A program made the position numbers and the translations under genes. A stretch of DNA of 64,000 bases from Planctomycetes bacterium syqfu (GTDB lineage Bacteria > Planctomycetota > Phycisphaerae > Phycisphaerales > Phycisphaeraceae), in the NCBI GenBank assembly GCA_020974905.1, contig CP087563.1, positions 6,200,001 to 6,264,000 of the forward strand, written 5' to 3'. Positions 23,960 through 43,506 of the stretch are shown piece by piece; position 1 is the first letter of the stretch, and each line of letters opens with the position of its first letter. The notes under the pieces are model-generated. The model ran no database searches, was not told the origin of the DNA, and saw nothing but the letters and a program-made list of their open reading frames with translations.

Positions 23960-23994
23960 ATGGATTGGCCTTCTGAGCAAAGGAGTGCTCAGCG

Positions 23995-24339
23995 ATCCCA
24001 GCAAAAGTAATCGCAACCTGTTTTGCACTTGTCGGTTTTGCCGCGGCTCTTATTGTTGGAGTCTCTGCGGGGTTATCAACCGAAGATATCATATTTCGTG
24101 CAGTGCTTGCGATGTTTCCCTGCTGGTGGATCGGCAGACTCGTCGGGGCGTTGGCGGTGCACACCGTCGAAACGCAAGTTCGAGAGTACAAACTCGCAAG
24201 ACCAATTCCTACGGACTATGAAATGTCTTCGGATGTTGAAGTCCTGGATGATGACGAAGAAGCGTCACTGGATGAACCTTCACCCAATGGCAACAAATCA
24301 GCCTCGACAGAACCGCCAAAGGTCTCTGCCAACAGCTGA
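23995..24339 (+). CDS. Small two-helix membrane protein upstream of fliA; no standard start codon
   Basis: From ATC 23995 the product is 114 aa: PAKVIATCFALVGFAAALIVG forms one membrane helix, AVLAMFPCWWIGRLVGALAV a second, followed by an acidic, low-complexity tail (SSDVEVLDDDEEASLDEPSP). No ATG, GTG or TTG occurs in frame before GTG 24103, which would cut off the first helix. AAGGAG at 23980-23985 lies 9 nt before the ATC. A 16-codon ORF (ATG 23960) enters the same protein if the ribosome slips -1 at AAG|TAA (24005-24010), or if one A has been lost from the A4 run. The gene ends 73 bp before fliA and may be co-transcribed. No family was recognised. Confidence 0.55.
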   Translation: MPAKVIATCFALVGFAAALIVGVSAGLSTEDIIFRAVLAMFPCWWIGRLVGALAVHTVETQVREYKLARPIPTDYEMSSDVEVLDDDEEASLDEPSPNGNKSASTEPPKVSANS

Positions 24340-38931: not shown

Positions 38932-40893
38932 ATGAGTAGCATCCAATCTGGCAGCTTTACACGCACAAGTTCGCTGATGAGTTCCAATCAGCTGATGTAT
39001 CAATTGCGCCAGATTCAAACCGAGTTGGCCGATGCCCAGAATGCCATTACCAATGGCCAGCAGGTCAACAAACCCTCTGACGCGCCAACGCTGACGTCCG
39101 CCATTTTGCTGGTCATGCAGCAGATGGAAGCGCGCGGTCAGCACGAAAACAATCTCGATTACATCTCCACGATGCTCGACAATGTCGACCAAGCCATGGC
39201 TGACGTTTCGACCATTTCCATCGAAGCACACAGTCTGGCGTTAAGCCAGATCGGCATTGTCTCCGACGAGGAAACCCGCCAGGCAGAAGCTTCTGTCGTG
39301 GACGCTCAACTTAGCGCACTTCTGGACATCGTTAACCGCAAGGTGCTGGATATCGGCCTGTTTAACGGCAATTCCAACAGTGGCAATGAAGCCTTCGTCG
39401 AATTCATGGGCGGTATCCGCTACGTTGGTGCCGAATCCAACCTGATCGCCGAAACGGGTCTGTCTGACGAAGTCGCCTACAACTCCAACGGCCTGGAAGC
39501 CTTCAACGCTCTGGGTTATGTCTACGGTGACCTTGATCTGGACCCCGCTGCAACACCGGCAACGCGTCTGCAGGATGCCGAAGGTGCAACAAGCAACGGT
39601 ATCCGACTTGGCTCACTGCAATTGGATGTCGATGGCACGACGACCACCGTTGATCTGGGCACCGCCCGGACCTTCAACGATGTGATCCTTCGCATCCAGA
39701 ACGCCATCGACAGCATCGACCCGACTGCCGGCACGATCAATATCAGTGACAACGGTTTTGAACTCACCGCGGACAGCGGCCATGAGATCACCATTTCCGA
39801 CTTCCCCGGCGGTGTCGTCGCCCAAGACCTTGGCATCGACCTTTATGCCAATGACGAAACCGTCACTGGTGCCGATGTGCAGGTCAAACTCACCGCCCGT
39901 ACCCCACTGGATGCGTTGGACTTTGGTATCGACTGGGACAGTGGTCTGTCGATCACCCAGGGCGCTGTCACCAAGATCGCGGACTTCTCAGATGCTGAGA
40001 ATATCCAGGATGTGATGAACGTCATCGACGGACTCCACATGGGTGTTCACATGCAGATCAAAGCTGACGGCAGCGGTCTGAACATGGTGACCGAAGTCTC
40101 GGGCATTAACCTGTCCATCGGTGAAGTCAACGGTGGCACCACCGCGACCGATCTTGGCCTGCGGACCTTCAATAACAGCACCAAACTCGCCAGCCTCAAC
40201 AACGGCATCGGCGTCGGTCGCACCGCAGCACAGGATGATATCGAAATCCAGCTTCACGATGGATCACTGATCAGTGTGAATCTCGACGAAGCTGCAACGA
40301 TTGAAGATGTGATCGCTGCAATCACCACCGCAGCTGAAGACCTTGGCTTGAGTGTGGGTTTACCTGGTGATGGGGCGGACCTGAACATCGGTTTTGCCTC
40401 CGAAGGCAACGGCCTGGTGATTGAGGATGGCACGTTTGGTGCAGAGGATTTCAAGATCACCAGCATCAACCTTTCCACCGCCGCCGAAGACCTTGGCATT
40501 GCCGGGAACCTCAAGGATGAATCGGAGATGGCCGGTGAAGACGTGGCCACGGTTCAAGTGGACAGCATTTTTACACATTTAATAAATTTAAAAGAAAGTT
40601 TGCTGCAAAATGACTCGCGTGGCATCTCGCTTGCTGCTGGTAAGCTGGATGGTGACTCAGATTCAGTCACCCAGGTGCGTGCAACGATCGGCGTTCGCAC
40701 GACACGGGCCGAAGAAGCCCTGAATCGCTCGTCAGAACTGGGTATTTCAGAGTCCAGTTTGCTAAACGAGCTACAGGGCGGAGATTTAACGGAGCTTATT
40801 TTGAAATACCAGAATCTCCAATACCAACTGCAGGCAAGTTTGAGCGTGGGAGCGCAAAATTTGCAGATGAGCTTGTTGGACTTTTTGGCCTGA
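38932..40893 (+). CDS. flgL: Flagellar hook-associated protein 3 (FlgL), enlarged
   Basis: 653 aa, against about 300-400 for most FlgL. The N-terminal flagellin-like domain (SNQLMYQLRQIQTELADAQN, ITNGQQVNKPSDAPTLTSAI) and the C-terminal helix (LTELILKYQNLQYQLQASLS, LLDFLA) are conserved. The roughly 370-residue middle holds at least two flagellin hook-IN-like repeats, for example VDLGTARTFNDVILRIQNAI and VNLDEAATIEDVIAAITTAA, each followed by a DLGI or DLGL turn. These inserts would form extra outer domains on the junction. Secreted, no signal peptide. A 157-bp gap with small hairpins, including TGGC-AGGAA-GCCA at 40957-40969, separates it from fliW. Confidence 0.9.
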   Translation: MSSIQSGSFTRTSSLMSSNQLMYQLRQIQTELADAQNAITNGQQVNKPSDAPTLTSAILLVMQQMEARGQHENNLDYISTMLDNVDQAMADVSTISIEAHSLALSQIGIVSDEETRQAEASVVDAQLSALLDIVNRKVLDIGLFNGNSNSGNEAFVEFMGGIRYVGAESNLIAETGLSDEVAYNSNGLEAFNALGYVYGDLDLDPAATPATRLQDAEGATSNGIRLGSLQLDVDGTTTTVDLGTARTFNDVILRIQNAIDSIDPTAGTINISDNGFELTADSGHEITISDFPGGVVAQDLGIDLYANDETVTGADVQVKLTARTPLDALDFGIDWDSGLSITQGAVTKIADFSDAENIQDVMNVIDGLHMGVHMQIKADGSGLNMVTEVSGINLSIGEVNGGTTATDLGLRTFNNSTKLASLNNGIGVGRTAAQDDIEIQLHDGSLISVNLDEAATIEDVIAAITTAAEDLGLSVGLPGDGADLNIGFASEGNGLVIEDGTFGAEDFKITSINLSTAAEDLGIAGNLKDESEMAGEDVATVQVDSIFTHLINLKESLLQNDSRGISLAAGKLDGDSDSVTQVRATIGVRTTRAEEALNRSSELGISESSLLNELQGGDLTELILKYQNLQYQLQASLSVGAQNLQMSLLDFLA

Positions 40894-41050
40894 TTCGGCA
40901 GAAATTGCGCATCTGAGAGGTCTTCGGTCGACCTGACGGATGCTTGAAAAATGAGGTGGCAGGAAGCCAGCTCCAGCAGGTCAATGAATGGAAACGACAC
41001 CTGCTGAACAATCCAGGATGGAAGACCGCGTTAAGAGAAGGATCAGTCAA

Positions 41051-41497
41051 ATGATCGTAAACACAACGAGATTCGGACAAGTGGAAGTGGATGACTCTCG
41101 CGTCATCGTCTTTCCCAAGGGTTTGCTGGGCTTCCCCAGTTACACCCGCTACGTGCTCATTGAGCCGGGCGAAGACAGCTACTTTCTCTGGCTTCAGTCA
41201 ACCCAGACGCCGGACCTGGCGTTTGTGGTCACCGACCCGAGCCTGTTTGTCCCAACGTACAAGGTTCCGATCAAACAGGACCAGATGCGCGAGCTGGGCA
41301 TTGCCTCACTGTCCAGTGCACAGGTCTTCGTGATCGTCAACAAGGTCGATCGCATGCTCACCGGCAACCTGCAGGGACCGCTGGTGATCAACGTGGCGAC
41401 CAAGGTCGGCGAGCAGTTGGTGCTCTCTGATCGTCGGTTTACGACAAGGGTGCCCCTGGTGGAATTGGGAAGCCCGGTGGAAGCGATGTCGGCTTGA
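41051..41497 (+). CDS. fliW: Flagellar assembly factor FliW, CsrA antagonist
   Basis: 148 aa from ATG 41051 (MIVNTTRFGQVEVDDSRVIV), where FliW proteins normally begin; GAAGGA lies upstream. A start at 40988 would add 21 atypical residues. Core motifs: FPKGLLGFPSYTRYVLIEPG, FLWLQSTQTPDLAFVVTDPS and LQGPLVINVATKVGEQLVLS. FliW binds CsrA allosterically and is displaced by unexported flagellin, linking flagellin export to its translation. The order fliW-csrA-fliC here is the expected one for that circuit. Confidence 0.95.
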   Translation: MIVNTTRFGQVEVDDSRVIVFPKGLLGFPSYTRYVLIEPGEDSYFLWLQSTQTPDLAFVVTDPSLFVPTYKVPIKQDQMRELGIASLSSAQVFVIVNKVDRMLTGNLQGPLVINVATKVGEQLVLSDRRFTTRVPLVELGSPVEAMSA

Positions 41498-41534: not shown

Positions 41535-41606
41535 CCGATGCACGGAGGCATCGGTAACCAGGCGGGCAGTGACGTAAGCTGACTGCCAAGGCCCACGGAA
41601 GGAGCC
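41535..41606 (+). promoter_or_regulatory. csrA leader with GGA-loop hairpin, probable CsrA autoregulatory site
   Basis: CCGATGC-ACGGAG-GCATCGG (41535-41554) is a perfect 7-bp hairpin with a six-base loop containing GGA, the form CsrA prefers. A second hairpin pairs GGCAGT (41565-41570) with ACTGCC across 11 bases. The Shine-Dalgarno region (GGAAGGAG, 41598-41604) holds two more GGA motifs. Confidence 0.65.
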
Positions 41607-41612
41607 TGTTTC

Positions 41613-41882
41613 ATGCTGGTGCTCTCGCGTCAGCGCGACGAAACGATCATGATCGGCGACGAGATAGAAATCACCGTCGTCGACATCCGTGGTGACAAGG
41701 TCCGTTTGGGGATCAACGCACCGAGATCCATTCAAGTCCACCGCAAGGAGGTCTACGAAGCGATCAAGGCTGAGAATACCCAGGCAAGCCATGTACAAGT
41801 GGATGATTTAAACGTCGCCAACCAAAACCTGAGGAAGATGGGTAAGGCCCCAGGAACCTTACCTGGCACTCAGAAGAAATAG
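41613..41882 (+). CDS. csrA: Carbon storage / translational regulator CsrA
   Basis: 89 aa. [20 protein letters not shown] opens with the conserved beta-1 strand, including the RNA-contacting Arg of [23 protein letters not shown] carries the second RNA-contacting segment (I-x-V-H-R-x-E-V-Y). CsrA dimers bind GGA motifs in RNA loops and block ribosome binding. The tail ([16 protein letters not shown]) extends past the usual 60-75 residues. GGAAGGAG precedes ATG 41613. It lies between fliW and fliC; their leaders contain matching hairpins. Confidence 0.97.
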
Positions 41883-41890
41883 ATTAACGT

Positions 41891-42036
41891 TGCCTTGGAG
41901 ATGACGGATCGTATATCACAAGGCAGGAATAGGAAAAAGCGATGAAACGTGACCACACAACAAAACATAACTGTCAGGATAGTACAGTTCATATCGTTTC
42001 GTCGTGTCTCGATCACGACAATCAAGGAGGATTGTC
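41891..42036 (+). promoter_or_regulatory. fliC mRNA leader with two CsrA-type hairpins, one sequestering the Shine-Dalgarno
   Basis: The hairpin GACAATC-AAGGAG-GATTGTC (42017-42036) is perfect, and its loop is the Shine-Dalgarno core; the ATG follows at once. Upstream, AACTGT (41969-41974) pairs with ACAGTT (41984-41989) and presents AGGATA in the loop. A weaker stem TGCCTTG/CAAGGCA (41891-41925) precedes. Six GGA motifs occur in the csrA-fliC gap. This is the arrangement known for hag in Bacillus subtilis. Confidence 0.75.
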
Positions 42037-43506
42037 ATGACTAGAATTAATACAAACATCGGATCACTCGTCGCTCAGCAAAACTTGGCCAAGAGCAATA
42101 GAGGTTTGGAAACAAGCCTCCAGCGGCTAAGTACAGGACTGAGCATCAACCGCGGTGCGGATAACCCGGCCGGCTTGATCGTCTCGGAACGATTAAGGTC
42201 GGAAATCTCCGCCACCGAGCAGGCGATGAGCAACATCGAGCGTGCGTCCAACGTGATCGCAACAACCGAAGCGTCGCTTTCGGAAATCTCGAATCTGCTC
42301 ATTGATATCCAGGCACTGATTGTCGAAGCCGCGAATACCGGCGGATTCAGCCAGGAGGAAATCGAAGCCAACCAGTTGCAAATCGACTCGGCTATCGACT
42401 CCATCACGCGAATCTCAAACTCGACAACCTTTGCTGGACTTAAACTGCTTAACGGCAACCTGGAATACATCACCTCAGGCGTTGACCCAGCGGTCATCAA
42501 CGATGTGAAGATTTCATCAGTCAACTGGGGAACGGCACCGACCATCCCAATGACCGTCGAAGTCATCGCCTCGGCCGAAACCGCTCAGCTCTTCATCTCA
42601 GGTGGTGGTAACCCCGGTAATCCCGGCACATTCCTTTCCAGTGTCCAGTTTGAAGTGACTGGCCCGGTTGGGGTGCAGGTGATTTCAGTTGCCTCAGGGA
42701 CACCGCTTTCAGCAGTCGTCTTCAATATCAACCAGGTTGCCGATGCCACCGGCGTCTCAGCTTACATGGTCGATCCACTGGACCCGACTTCTGGTATGGT
42801 GCTCAACTCGCAGGCCGTCGGTTCGGATGCCTTTGTCAGTGTCCGCAAACTGGATAACTCATCAGGCGCCTTCTTCCAGACCTTTGATTCGCAGGGCGGT
42901 GCACCGGTTCTTCGTGATACTGGTGAAGATGTCCTGGCCTTGGTCAACGGTAACCTGGCTTTGGGCGACGGTGAAACCATCAGTTTGCGGTCTCAGACCG
43001 TCAATCTCGAGATGACACTTACCCGAGCGGCATCACAGACACTGGGGACCACCGAGTACACCATCATCGGGGGCGGTGCCGACTTCCAGATCGGCCCATC
43101 CATCGACACCTCGCAACGCGTGGGCTTTGGTATCGGCTCGGTCGCAGCCAGTCACCTGGGTAATCAGACCGTCGGTTTCCTCAATTCGGTGGCATCAGGG
43201 GGTGAAAACTCACTGGTTGCAGGCCATCAGGCTGAAGCTTCAATGATTGTCGAAGAAGCCATTGATCAGATTGCGGTTCTGCGTGGTCGACTCGGTGCCT
43301 TCGAACGCAACACCTTGGACACGACGTACAACAGTCAGTCCATCGCGTTGGAAAACCTGACCGCAAGCGAGAGCCGTGTCCGCGATACGGACTTCGCCAA
43401 GGAAACCGCAGAACTCACACGTTCGCAGGTCCTCGTCAGTGCAGGTACCTCCGTCCTGGCTTTGGCCAACAACACATCGCAGAGCGTACTCTCACTACTG
43501 CAATAA
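42037..43506 (+). CDS. fliC: Flagellin
   Basis: 489 aa from ATG 42037 (MTRINTNIGSLVAQQNLAKS); an upstream in-frame start at 42004 would run through the regulatory hairpin and is rejected. The N-terminal D0/D1 domain shows LETSLQRLSTGLSINRGADN with PAGLIVSERLRSEISATEQA, and the C-terminal D1/D0 shows VLRGRLGAFERNTLDTTYNS and SESRVRDTDFAKETAELTRS. The variable middle (about 165-370) is beta-rich and surface exposed. Filament subunit, exported by the flagellar type III system. The translation-control leader and strong terminator frame it as its own unit. No second flagellin gene is in the window. Confidence 0.97.
   Translation: MTRINTNIGSLVAQQNLAKSNRGLETSLQRLSTGLSINRGADNPAGLIVSERLRSEISATEQAMSNIERASNVIATTEASLSEISNLLIDIQALIVEAANTGGFSQEEIEANQLQIDSAIDSITRISNSTTFAGLKLLNGNLEYITSGVDPAVINDVKISSVNWGTAPTIPMTVEVIASAETAQLFISGGGNPGNPGTFLSSVQFEVTGPVGVQVISVASGTPLSAVVFNINQVADATGVSAYMVDPLDPTSGMVLNSQAVGSDAFVSVRKLDNSSGAFFQTFDSQGGAPVLRDTGEDVLALVNGNLALGDGETISLRSQTVNLEMTLTRAASQTLGTTEYTIIGGGADFQIGPSIDTSQRVGFGIGSVAASHLGNQTVGFLNSVASGGENSLVAGHQAEASMIVEEAIDQIAVLRGRLGAFERNTLDTTYNSQSIALENLTASESRVRDTDFAKETAELTRSQVLVSAGTSVLALANNTSQSVLSLLQ

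Follow-up and report, generated by a model that had tools for sequence, protein, structure and literature searches.

A predicted FliW-CsrA-flagellin switch in Phycisphaerae with a putative autogenous CsrA hairpin in the csrA leader

Is flagellin synthesis in a planctomycete governed by CsrA and FliW, and how might the level of CsrA itself be held there? FliW-CsrA-flagellin control is established in Bacillus subtilis and Campylobacter jejuni, and the presence of FliW in Planctomycetes and its possible use on CsrA there have already been published (PMC4682653). The loop has so far been worked out in few phyla. In the open-licence literature, I found no paper with CsrA in Planctomycetes as its subject, and none on CsrA in Phycisphaerae or on csrA autoregulation in a FliW system. 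The window analysed here is the whole stretch of 64,000 nucleotides, positions 6200001-6264000 of the 7.38-Mb single-contig genome. In the initial annotation, fliW, csrA, and fliC were described as consecutive genes, which is borne out by Pfam profile matches and by their order on the + strand.

41051 to 41494, + strand: fliW, CsrA antagonist and flagellin sensor (Pfam PF02623, E=2.7e-34)
41613 to 41882, + strand: csrA, 89 amino acids, with a C-terminal extension and with L4, R6, R44, I51, and N55 present (Pfam PF02599, E=8.3e-26)
42037 to 43506, + strand: fliC, flagellin of 489 amino acids, the putatively regulated gene (Pfam PF00669/PF00700; N domain 6e-29, C domain 5.2e-16)

FliW, CsrA, and flagellin are all encoded, here as neighbours. 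The fliW start at 41051 was my choice; the open frame begins at 40988. The NCBIfam FliW models also match this gene, all below their own curated cut-offs. FlgK is encoded upstream of fliW-csrA-fliC, and a 653-residue frame at 38932, also upstream of fliW, is presumably FlgL-like, by position; a Pfam search of this frame gave no match. No Rfam family matched the window at gathering thresholds, and a search by eye of the csrA-fliC gap gave no convincing sigma-28-like promoter.

Is this arrangement common in the order and beyond? Of the 151 genomes of the order, 137 encode FliW, the window's genome included. I retrieved loci from 100 of the 136 relatives that carry FliW, which gives 101 loci with the window, and a flagellin gene follows csrA in 98 of them. 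The three loci with no downstream flagellin (L070, where the contig ends, L085, and L095) were dropped before the counts. FliW searches of the class and of the phylum matched 71 and 75 genomes, and the sample consists of the matches listed plus 20 regions each. From the 95 further loci, 11 duplicates of order loci, one locus with no FliW match (L202), and five with no csrA match (L160, L164, L175, L195, and L203) were left out of the gap analysis, and 78 remain. The distinct fliC leaders number 149, comprising 98 from the order, 39 further ones from the class, and 12 from other classes. In six other-class loci (L165, L169, L173, L182, L183, and L196), the search set the flagellin start one codon late, and these leaders end in ATG.

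The CsrA proteins range from 79 to 138 residues, and in all 98 genomes they carry L4, R6, R44, I51, and N55. In C. jejuni CsrA, V51 and N55 contact FliW, and V51 is replaced by isoleucine in some species (PMC7829508). All 98 proteins have the C-terminal extension and the FliW-contact residues (V/I51 and N55). The window's genome has two other CsrA copies, L002 (at 326865) and L003 (at 5209691), which lack the FliW-contact residues 51/55 in translations inspected by eye. A 5-bp ACGGAT hairpin lies about 120 nucleotides upstream of the L003 copy.

Directly before the fliC ATG, a perfect 7-bp hairpin with the Shine-Dalgarno (SD) core AAGGAG as its loop had been noted at the outset, and the sequence agrees exactly.

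42017 to 42036, + strand: fliC SD hairpin GACAATC-AAGGAG-GATTGTC, candidate high-affinity CsrA site of the CANGGANG type (exact match and comparison with relatives)

The stem arms occupy 42017-42023 and 42030-42036, the loop occupies 42024-42029, and the hairpin abuts the ATG at 42037. The exact hairpin occurs once in the 7.38-Mb genome; five other matches lie within 3 mismatches, all of them with 3. The predicted fold of the fliC leader (-44.5 kcal/mol, z = -2.44, a value reached by 4 of 200 shuffles) includes both this hairpin and the upstream one described below, and it also pairs 41939-41948 with 41996-42005, enclosing the upstream hairpin. When five close leaders were aligned by eye, a helix of GTCGTG (42001-42006) and CACGAC (42014-42019) was seen to be similar in the same-genus leaders. 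Three of its bases also belong to the 5′ arm of the SD stem, and the two structures may compete.

A stem of at least 7 bp around an ANGGAN loop on the SD is present at 40 of the 98 fliC starts of the order; none was seen at the starts of 52 second flagellins, 98 csrA genes, or 47 flgL genes. The 7-bp stem is found in 40 of 42 fliC leaders of the window's family, mostly as GACAATC/GATTGTC; its variants are GACAAAC/GTTTGTC and GACAGTC/GATTGTC. Stems such as GCAATC/GATTGC and CAATC/GATTG are found in other families. Stems of at least 5 bp occur in 79 of 98 order leaders, 22 of 39 further class leaders, and 1 of 12 other-class leaders, and stems of at least 4 bp in 5 of these 12. A long fliC SD stem is, as judged from these leaders, a trait of the window's class. 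Some lineages have lost it. One genus (L061, L066, L068, L073, L080, and L096) has no SD stem and carries an ACGGAG hairpin instead, just upstream of the SD. The stem is weak in one family of the class (L142, L147, L149, L150, L152, L153, and L157) and 3 bp in L017, and there is no GGA near the fliC start of L025.

The pairing was assessed in the 97 distinct ANGGA windows out of the 149 leaders. In the 7-bp stem, 73.5% of cells hold standard pairs versus 64.7% after shuffling, and 67 cells are altered on both sides versus 33.6. The covariation is 0.264 versus 0.139 shuffled, with 0 of 500 shuffles as high and slid versions at 0.06-0.12, although the shuffles overstate the significance since the sequences are related. 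Counting the pairs with any double change gives no separation, since 184 of 500 shuffles reach the observed number. A CsrA consensus site thus lies on the flagellin SD and is structurally conserved, though the stem is missing in some relatives.

Is the fliC hairpin a plain structure that sequesters the SD, such as an RNA thermometer or a case of structure-limited initiation, with no need for CsrA? A 7-bp stem on the SD would alone limit initiation, and the sequence AATC/GATT itself is often kept in the stem. However, the loop is constrained to ANGGA, in which N varies freely. The SD motif reads ANGGA in 142 of the 149 distinct leaders (N = A in 73, C in 42, T in 16, and G in 11), where the ANGGA copy was preferred among several GGAs at one start. 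A uniform rule was also applied to all genes, taking the GGAG/GGAA nearest the start on the operon strand with no preference for ANGGA. Where the base before GGA is not A, the position two bases ahead of GGA is A in 64 of 66 fliC SDs under this rule, versus 22 of 74 other frames of at least 200 codons, which are mechanical calls on the operon strand and not annotated genes. In a looser first control, an A was found at the same position in 60 of 275 frames, these being mechanical frames on both strands, with ANGGA preferred for fliC only. The bias under the uniform rule holds for fliC and is weaker for the csrA SD. Such an A is predicted by CsrA recognition and not by SD pairing; ANGGA and CANGGANG hexaloops are given as the CsrA signature for C. 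jejuni and RsmE (PMC4894983), and the window's fliC and csrA hairpins both match CANGGANG. Moreover, the same loop recurs in a hairpin of the csrA leader that is not on an SD, and a FliW-type csrA adjoins the fliC hairpin. Against these points, a plain SD-sequestering structure is very unlikely. The comparative data give good support to a FliW-CsrA-flagellin translational switch in which the fliC SD carries a CsrA site. There is a strong case that CsrA would block fliC initiation at the SD hairpin, and FliW, going by its family and the CsrA residues, would relieve the block on export.

Does CsrA use a second site on the fliC leader? In B. subtilis, the flagellin leader has two CsrA sites, one of them on the SD (PMC7652899, PMC6529632). 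A similar two-site layout had been proposed for the window, with a second hairpin 28 bp upstream. This hairpin is present, and the measured gap between the two hairpins is 27 nucleotides.

41969 to 41989, + strand: upstream fliC-leader hairpin AACTGT-CAGGATAGT-ACAGTT, candidate weak second CsrA site (sequence and predicted fold)

It has 6 bp (41969-41974 with 41984-41989) and, with one bulged T, a further C-G pair inside. Of the proposed layout, the SD site stands well supported, while the upstream site reads CAGGA, not ANGGA, with its GGA at 41977-41979, and such sites are found in a minority of leaders. In the comparison of csrA-fliC gaps among relatives, which the initial annotation had suggested for Phycisphaerae, the SD stem showed compensatory changes, while the upstream GGA was kept in only two of three same-genus relatives (L010 and L009) and lost in the third (L011).

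CsrA may act on fliC through the SD hairpin only, the window's upstream hairpin being due to chance and the second surface of the dimer being unused or placed on another RNA. The CAGGA loop and the loss in L011 fit this reading, as do some fliC leaders that are merely 20-60 nucleotides long. On the other hand, upstream sites are above chance. The strict hexaloop test with a stem of at least 6 bp gave 3 of 91 leaders versus 0.06 shuffled, GGA in a loop of 4-10 nucleotides with the same stem gave 22 of 91 versus 7.4, and ANGGA in a loop of 4-8 nucleotides gave 23 of 138 versus 1.1. Among upstream hairpins with a stem of at least 5 bp, GGA ranks first of the 64 trinucleotides. Two loci of other classes (L171 and L196) carry an upstream ANGGA hairpin together with an SD stem of at least 4 bp. 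Since these sites exceed chance in a minority of leaders, an upstream site appears to be favoured in some lineages and is not general. For the window, action through the SD hairpin only is a serious possibility, a little short of even odds.

The whole window was scanned for ANGGAN hexaloops with a stem of at least 5 bp. Four matches were found on the + strand and one, of 5 bp, on the - strand. Three of the four are perfect 7-bp stems, at 41535-41554, 42017-42036, and 23973-23992. The first of these, absent from the initial annotation, lies in the csrA leader about 480 nucleotides upstream of the fliC SD hairpin.

41535 to 41554, + strand: CsrA-type hairpin in the csrA leader, CCGATGC-ACGGAG-GCATCGG, loop within CANGGANG (window scan and covariation in relatives)
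41590 to 41606, + strand: csrA SD region GGCCC-ACGGAA-GG(A)GCC, which could form a 5-bp stem if one A is bulged (sequence)

Hairpins with an A.GGA hexaloop and a stem of at least 6 bp occur in 39 of the 98 fliW-csrA gaps of the order, and the next loop class occurs in 3; shuffles gave a mean of 0.19 and a maximum of 2 in 100 rounds. For covariation, sites were chosen by the loop motif alone; 69 of 153 leaders contributed a total of 77 distinct CANGGANG sites. Pairing in the 7-bp stem reaches 81.1% of cells, versus 54.4% shuffled and 28-48% slid. The covariation is 0.606 versus 0.183 shuffled, with wholesale replacement of the stem among relatives. Separation is weak for the count of pair types (reached by 42 of 500 shuffles) and absent for the pairs with a double change (500 of 500). 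The same-genus L011 has CCAGTGC-ATGGAA-GCACTGG in its csrA leader, with two compensatory pair changes. CsrA-type sites are found in the csrA leader at the level of both sequence and structure, and this hairpin is a stronger second element than the upstream fliC site.

In the window, the GGA of the csrA-leader hairpin and that of the csrA SD are 53 nucleotides apart (41544 to 41597). The csrA SD reads ANGGA in 133 of 153 leaders, with C..G closing in 67 of 153. Under the uniform rule, 108 of the 133 are plain AAGGAG-type, and straight stems are 2 bp or shorter in at least 110 of 153 leaders. Since the csrA SD is mostly of the AAGGAG type, it is weak and little discriminating evidence for a CsrA site.

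From the CsrA-type hairpin in the csrA leader, CsrA probably limits its own production. Could the hairpin be an element of mRNA processing or stability, or an attenuator, and not a site of translational autoregulation? It sits in the middle of the operon, and CsrA sites can act on stability and transcription too (PMC7652899). In contrast, the loop is specifically A.GGA, as the 39 leaders against 3 for the next class indicate, and no T-run follows the window's hairpin. A processing, stability, or attenuation role in place of translational autoregulation is thus unlikely, and there are good grounds to expect that CsrA lowers csrA translation. CsrA autoregulation as such is established in Escherichia coli (PMC7652899).

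How does this relate to the spacing of fliW and csrA? In B. subtilis, translation of csrA is coupled to that of fliW by an overlap of the two frames, and a fliW nonsense mutation abolishes CsrA; the tight stoichiometry is partly ascribed to this overlap, and further systems restricting FliW-CsrA abundance have been predicted (PMC6529632). In the window, the two frames neither overlap nor abut, being separated by a gap of 115 nucleotides. The distance from the fliW stop to the csrA start is at least 56 nucleotides in 98 of 98 order loci and 40 of 40 further class loci. In the other planctomycete classes, the gap is below 40 nucleotides in 30 of 38 loci; 14 overlap, 8 of these by 14 nucleotides. 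The overlap suggests translational coupling of fliW and csrA in those classes. A strong csrA-leader hairpin was found in 45 of 98 order loci, 12 of 40 further class loci, and 0 of 38 other-class loci; the majority of class loci lack one by the criterion used (57 of 138 have one). The association of hairpin and gap length has a Fisher p of 2e-6, which is not an independent test because both are confounded with clade. With moderate confidence, drawn from this one clade contrast, CsrA autoregulation may have replaced fliW-csrA coupling in Phycisphaerae.

Taken as a whole, the reading that I favour, at a probability of roughly 0.8, is a FliW-CsrA-flagellin homeostatic switch with an autogenous csrA loop that may have replaced coupling. 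The gene order, the loop motif, the conserved hairpins with compensatory changes, the protein residues, and the gap lengths are its observed basis, from which RNA binding, repression, relief by FliW, autoregulation, and the replacement of coupling are predicted. A CsrA dimer would bind the CANGGANG hexaloop that holds the fliC SD and would block ribosomes. Exported flagellin would free FliW, which would bind the C-terminal extension of CsrA (I51/N55) and lift the block; unexported flagellin would titrate FliW and restore it. On the csrA mRNA, CsrA would bind the ANGGA hairpin in the fliW-csrA gap and probably also the SD, and would thereby limit its own synthesis. This autogenous loop would take the place of the translational coupling seen in Bacillus.

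The third perfect hairpin of the window lies outside the fliW-csrA-fliC operon.

23973 to 23992, + strand: hairpin CTGAGCA-AAGGAG-TGCTCAG on the SD of a small gene (possibly flgV), possible CsrA target (window scan)
23995 to 24339, + strand: small gene, possibly flgV, directly before a sigma-28-like gene (place, and sequence by eye)

The gene that follows encodes a FliA/WhiG-type sigma factor. FlgV is a two-transmembrane flagellar protein encoded beside sigma-28 and recovered from Phycisphaerae (PMC11607428). By eye, two stretches of the small product are hydrophobic, the second of them containing an arginine, and no family model matched the product. By place and hydrophobic stretches, the small gene at 23995 is possibly flgV. 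In the 24 loci resolved among 30 of the family (L217-L246), its SD reads ANGGAG, N being A in 17, C in 5, G in 1, and T in 1. The SD stem has at least 6 bp in 12 of the 24 loci and 0 bp in 3. The start codon is non-AUG in 24 of 24 (ATC in 12, ATT in 9, and ATA in 3) and lies 8-9 nucleotides after the SD, as called by a script that allowed ATN, GTG, and TTG only. Readthrough of an in-frame UGA before this gene was considered and rejected, because the frame-conserved protein begins after the UGA.

Of 52 second flagellins downstream of fliC (L050-L108), 50 carry ANGGA close to the start and only 3 a stem of at least 5 bp; these genes may be weaker CsrA targets. The genome has four more flagellin-like genes outside the fliW-csrA operon (L005, L006, L007, and L008), which lack a strong SD hairpin; a scan of their leaders found no ANGGAN hairpin of at least 5 bp. 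By eye, L006 has ANGGA at its SD and an upstream hairpin of at most 3 bp.

The window's module resembles Hag-FliW-CsrA of B. subtilis in having FliW, a FliW-type CsrA, and flagellin. It differs in the upstream fliC site, which is weak here, and in the 115-nucleotide gap with a CsrA-type hairpin in place of the fliW-csrA overlap. The C. jejuni flaA leader has two ANGGA hexaloops, one on the ribosome-binding site, and the window's fliC leader resembles it in the hexaloop over that site, the CANGGANG motif, and the compensatory changes in relatives (PMC4894983). However, the flaA hexaloops are adjacent, with GGA motifs 21 nucleotides apart, whereas here the distance is 49 nucleotides and the upstream loop is imperfect. 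E. coli csrA has four sites and sRNA antagonists; here there are one candidate hairpin and possibly the SD within a FliW-type system, while FliW is absent from Gammaproteobacteria, E. coli included. The initial annotation had left the switch as either ancient or re-evolved. The gene order kept in 98 of 101 order loci, together with flagellin after csrA in some other-class loci, leans to ancient.

What does this mean for Phycisphaerae? At about an even chance, the homeostat of this class has been rewired: the ancestral coupling was lost, an autogenous ANGGA hairpin sets the CsrA level, and a common hexaloop code links csrA, the main flagellin, and probably the flgV-like gene with its non-AUG start. 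The comparison brings covariation evidence for CsrA sites to the planctomycete phylum. A clade that lacks the fliW-csrA overlap and often has a covarying CsrA-type hairpin in the gap would be a natural setting in which to test how the ratio is kept in a partner-switching homeostat.
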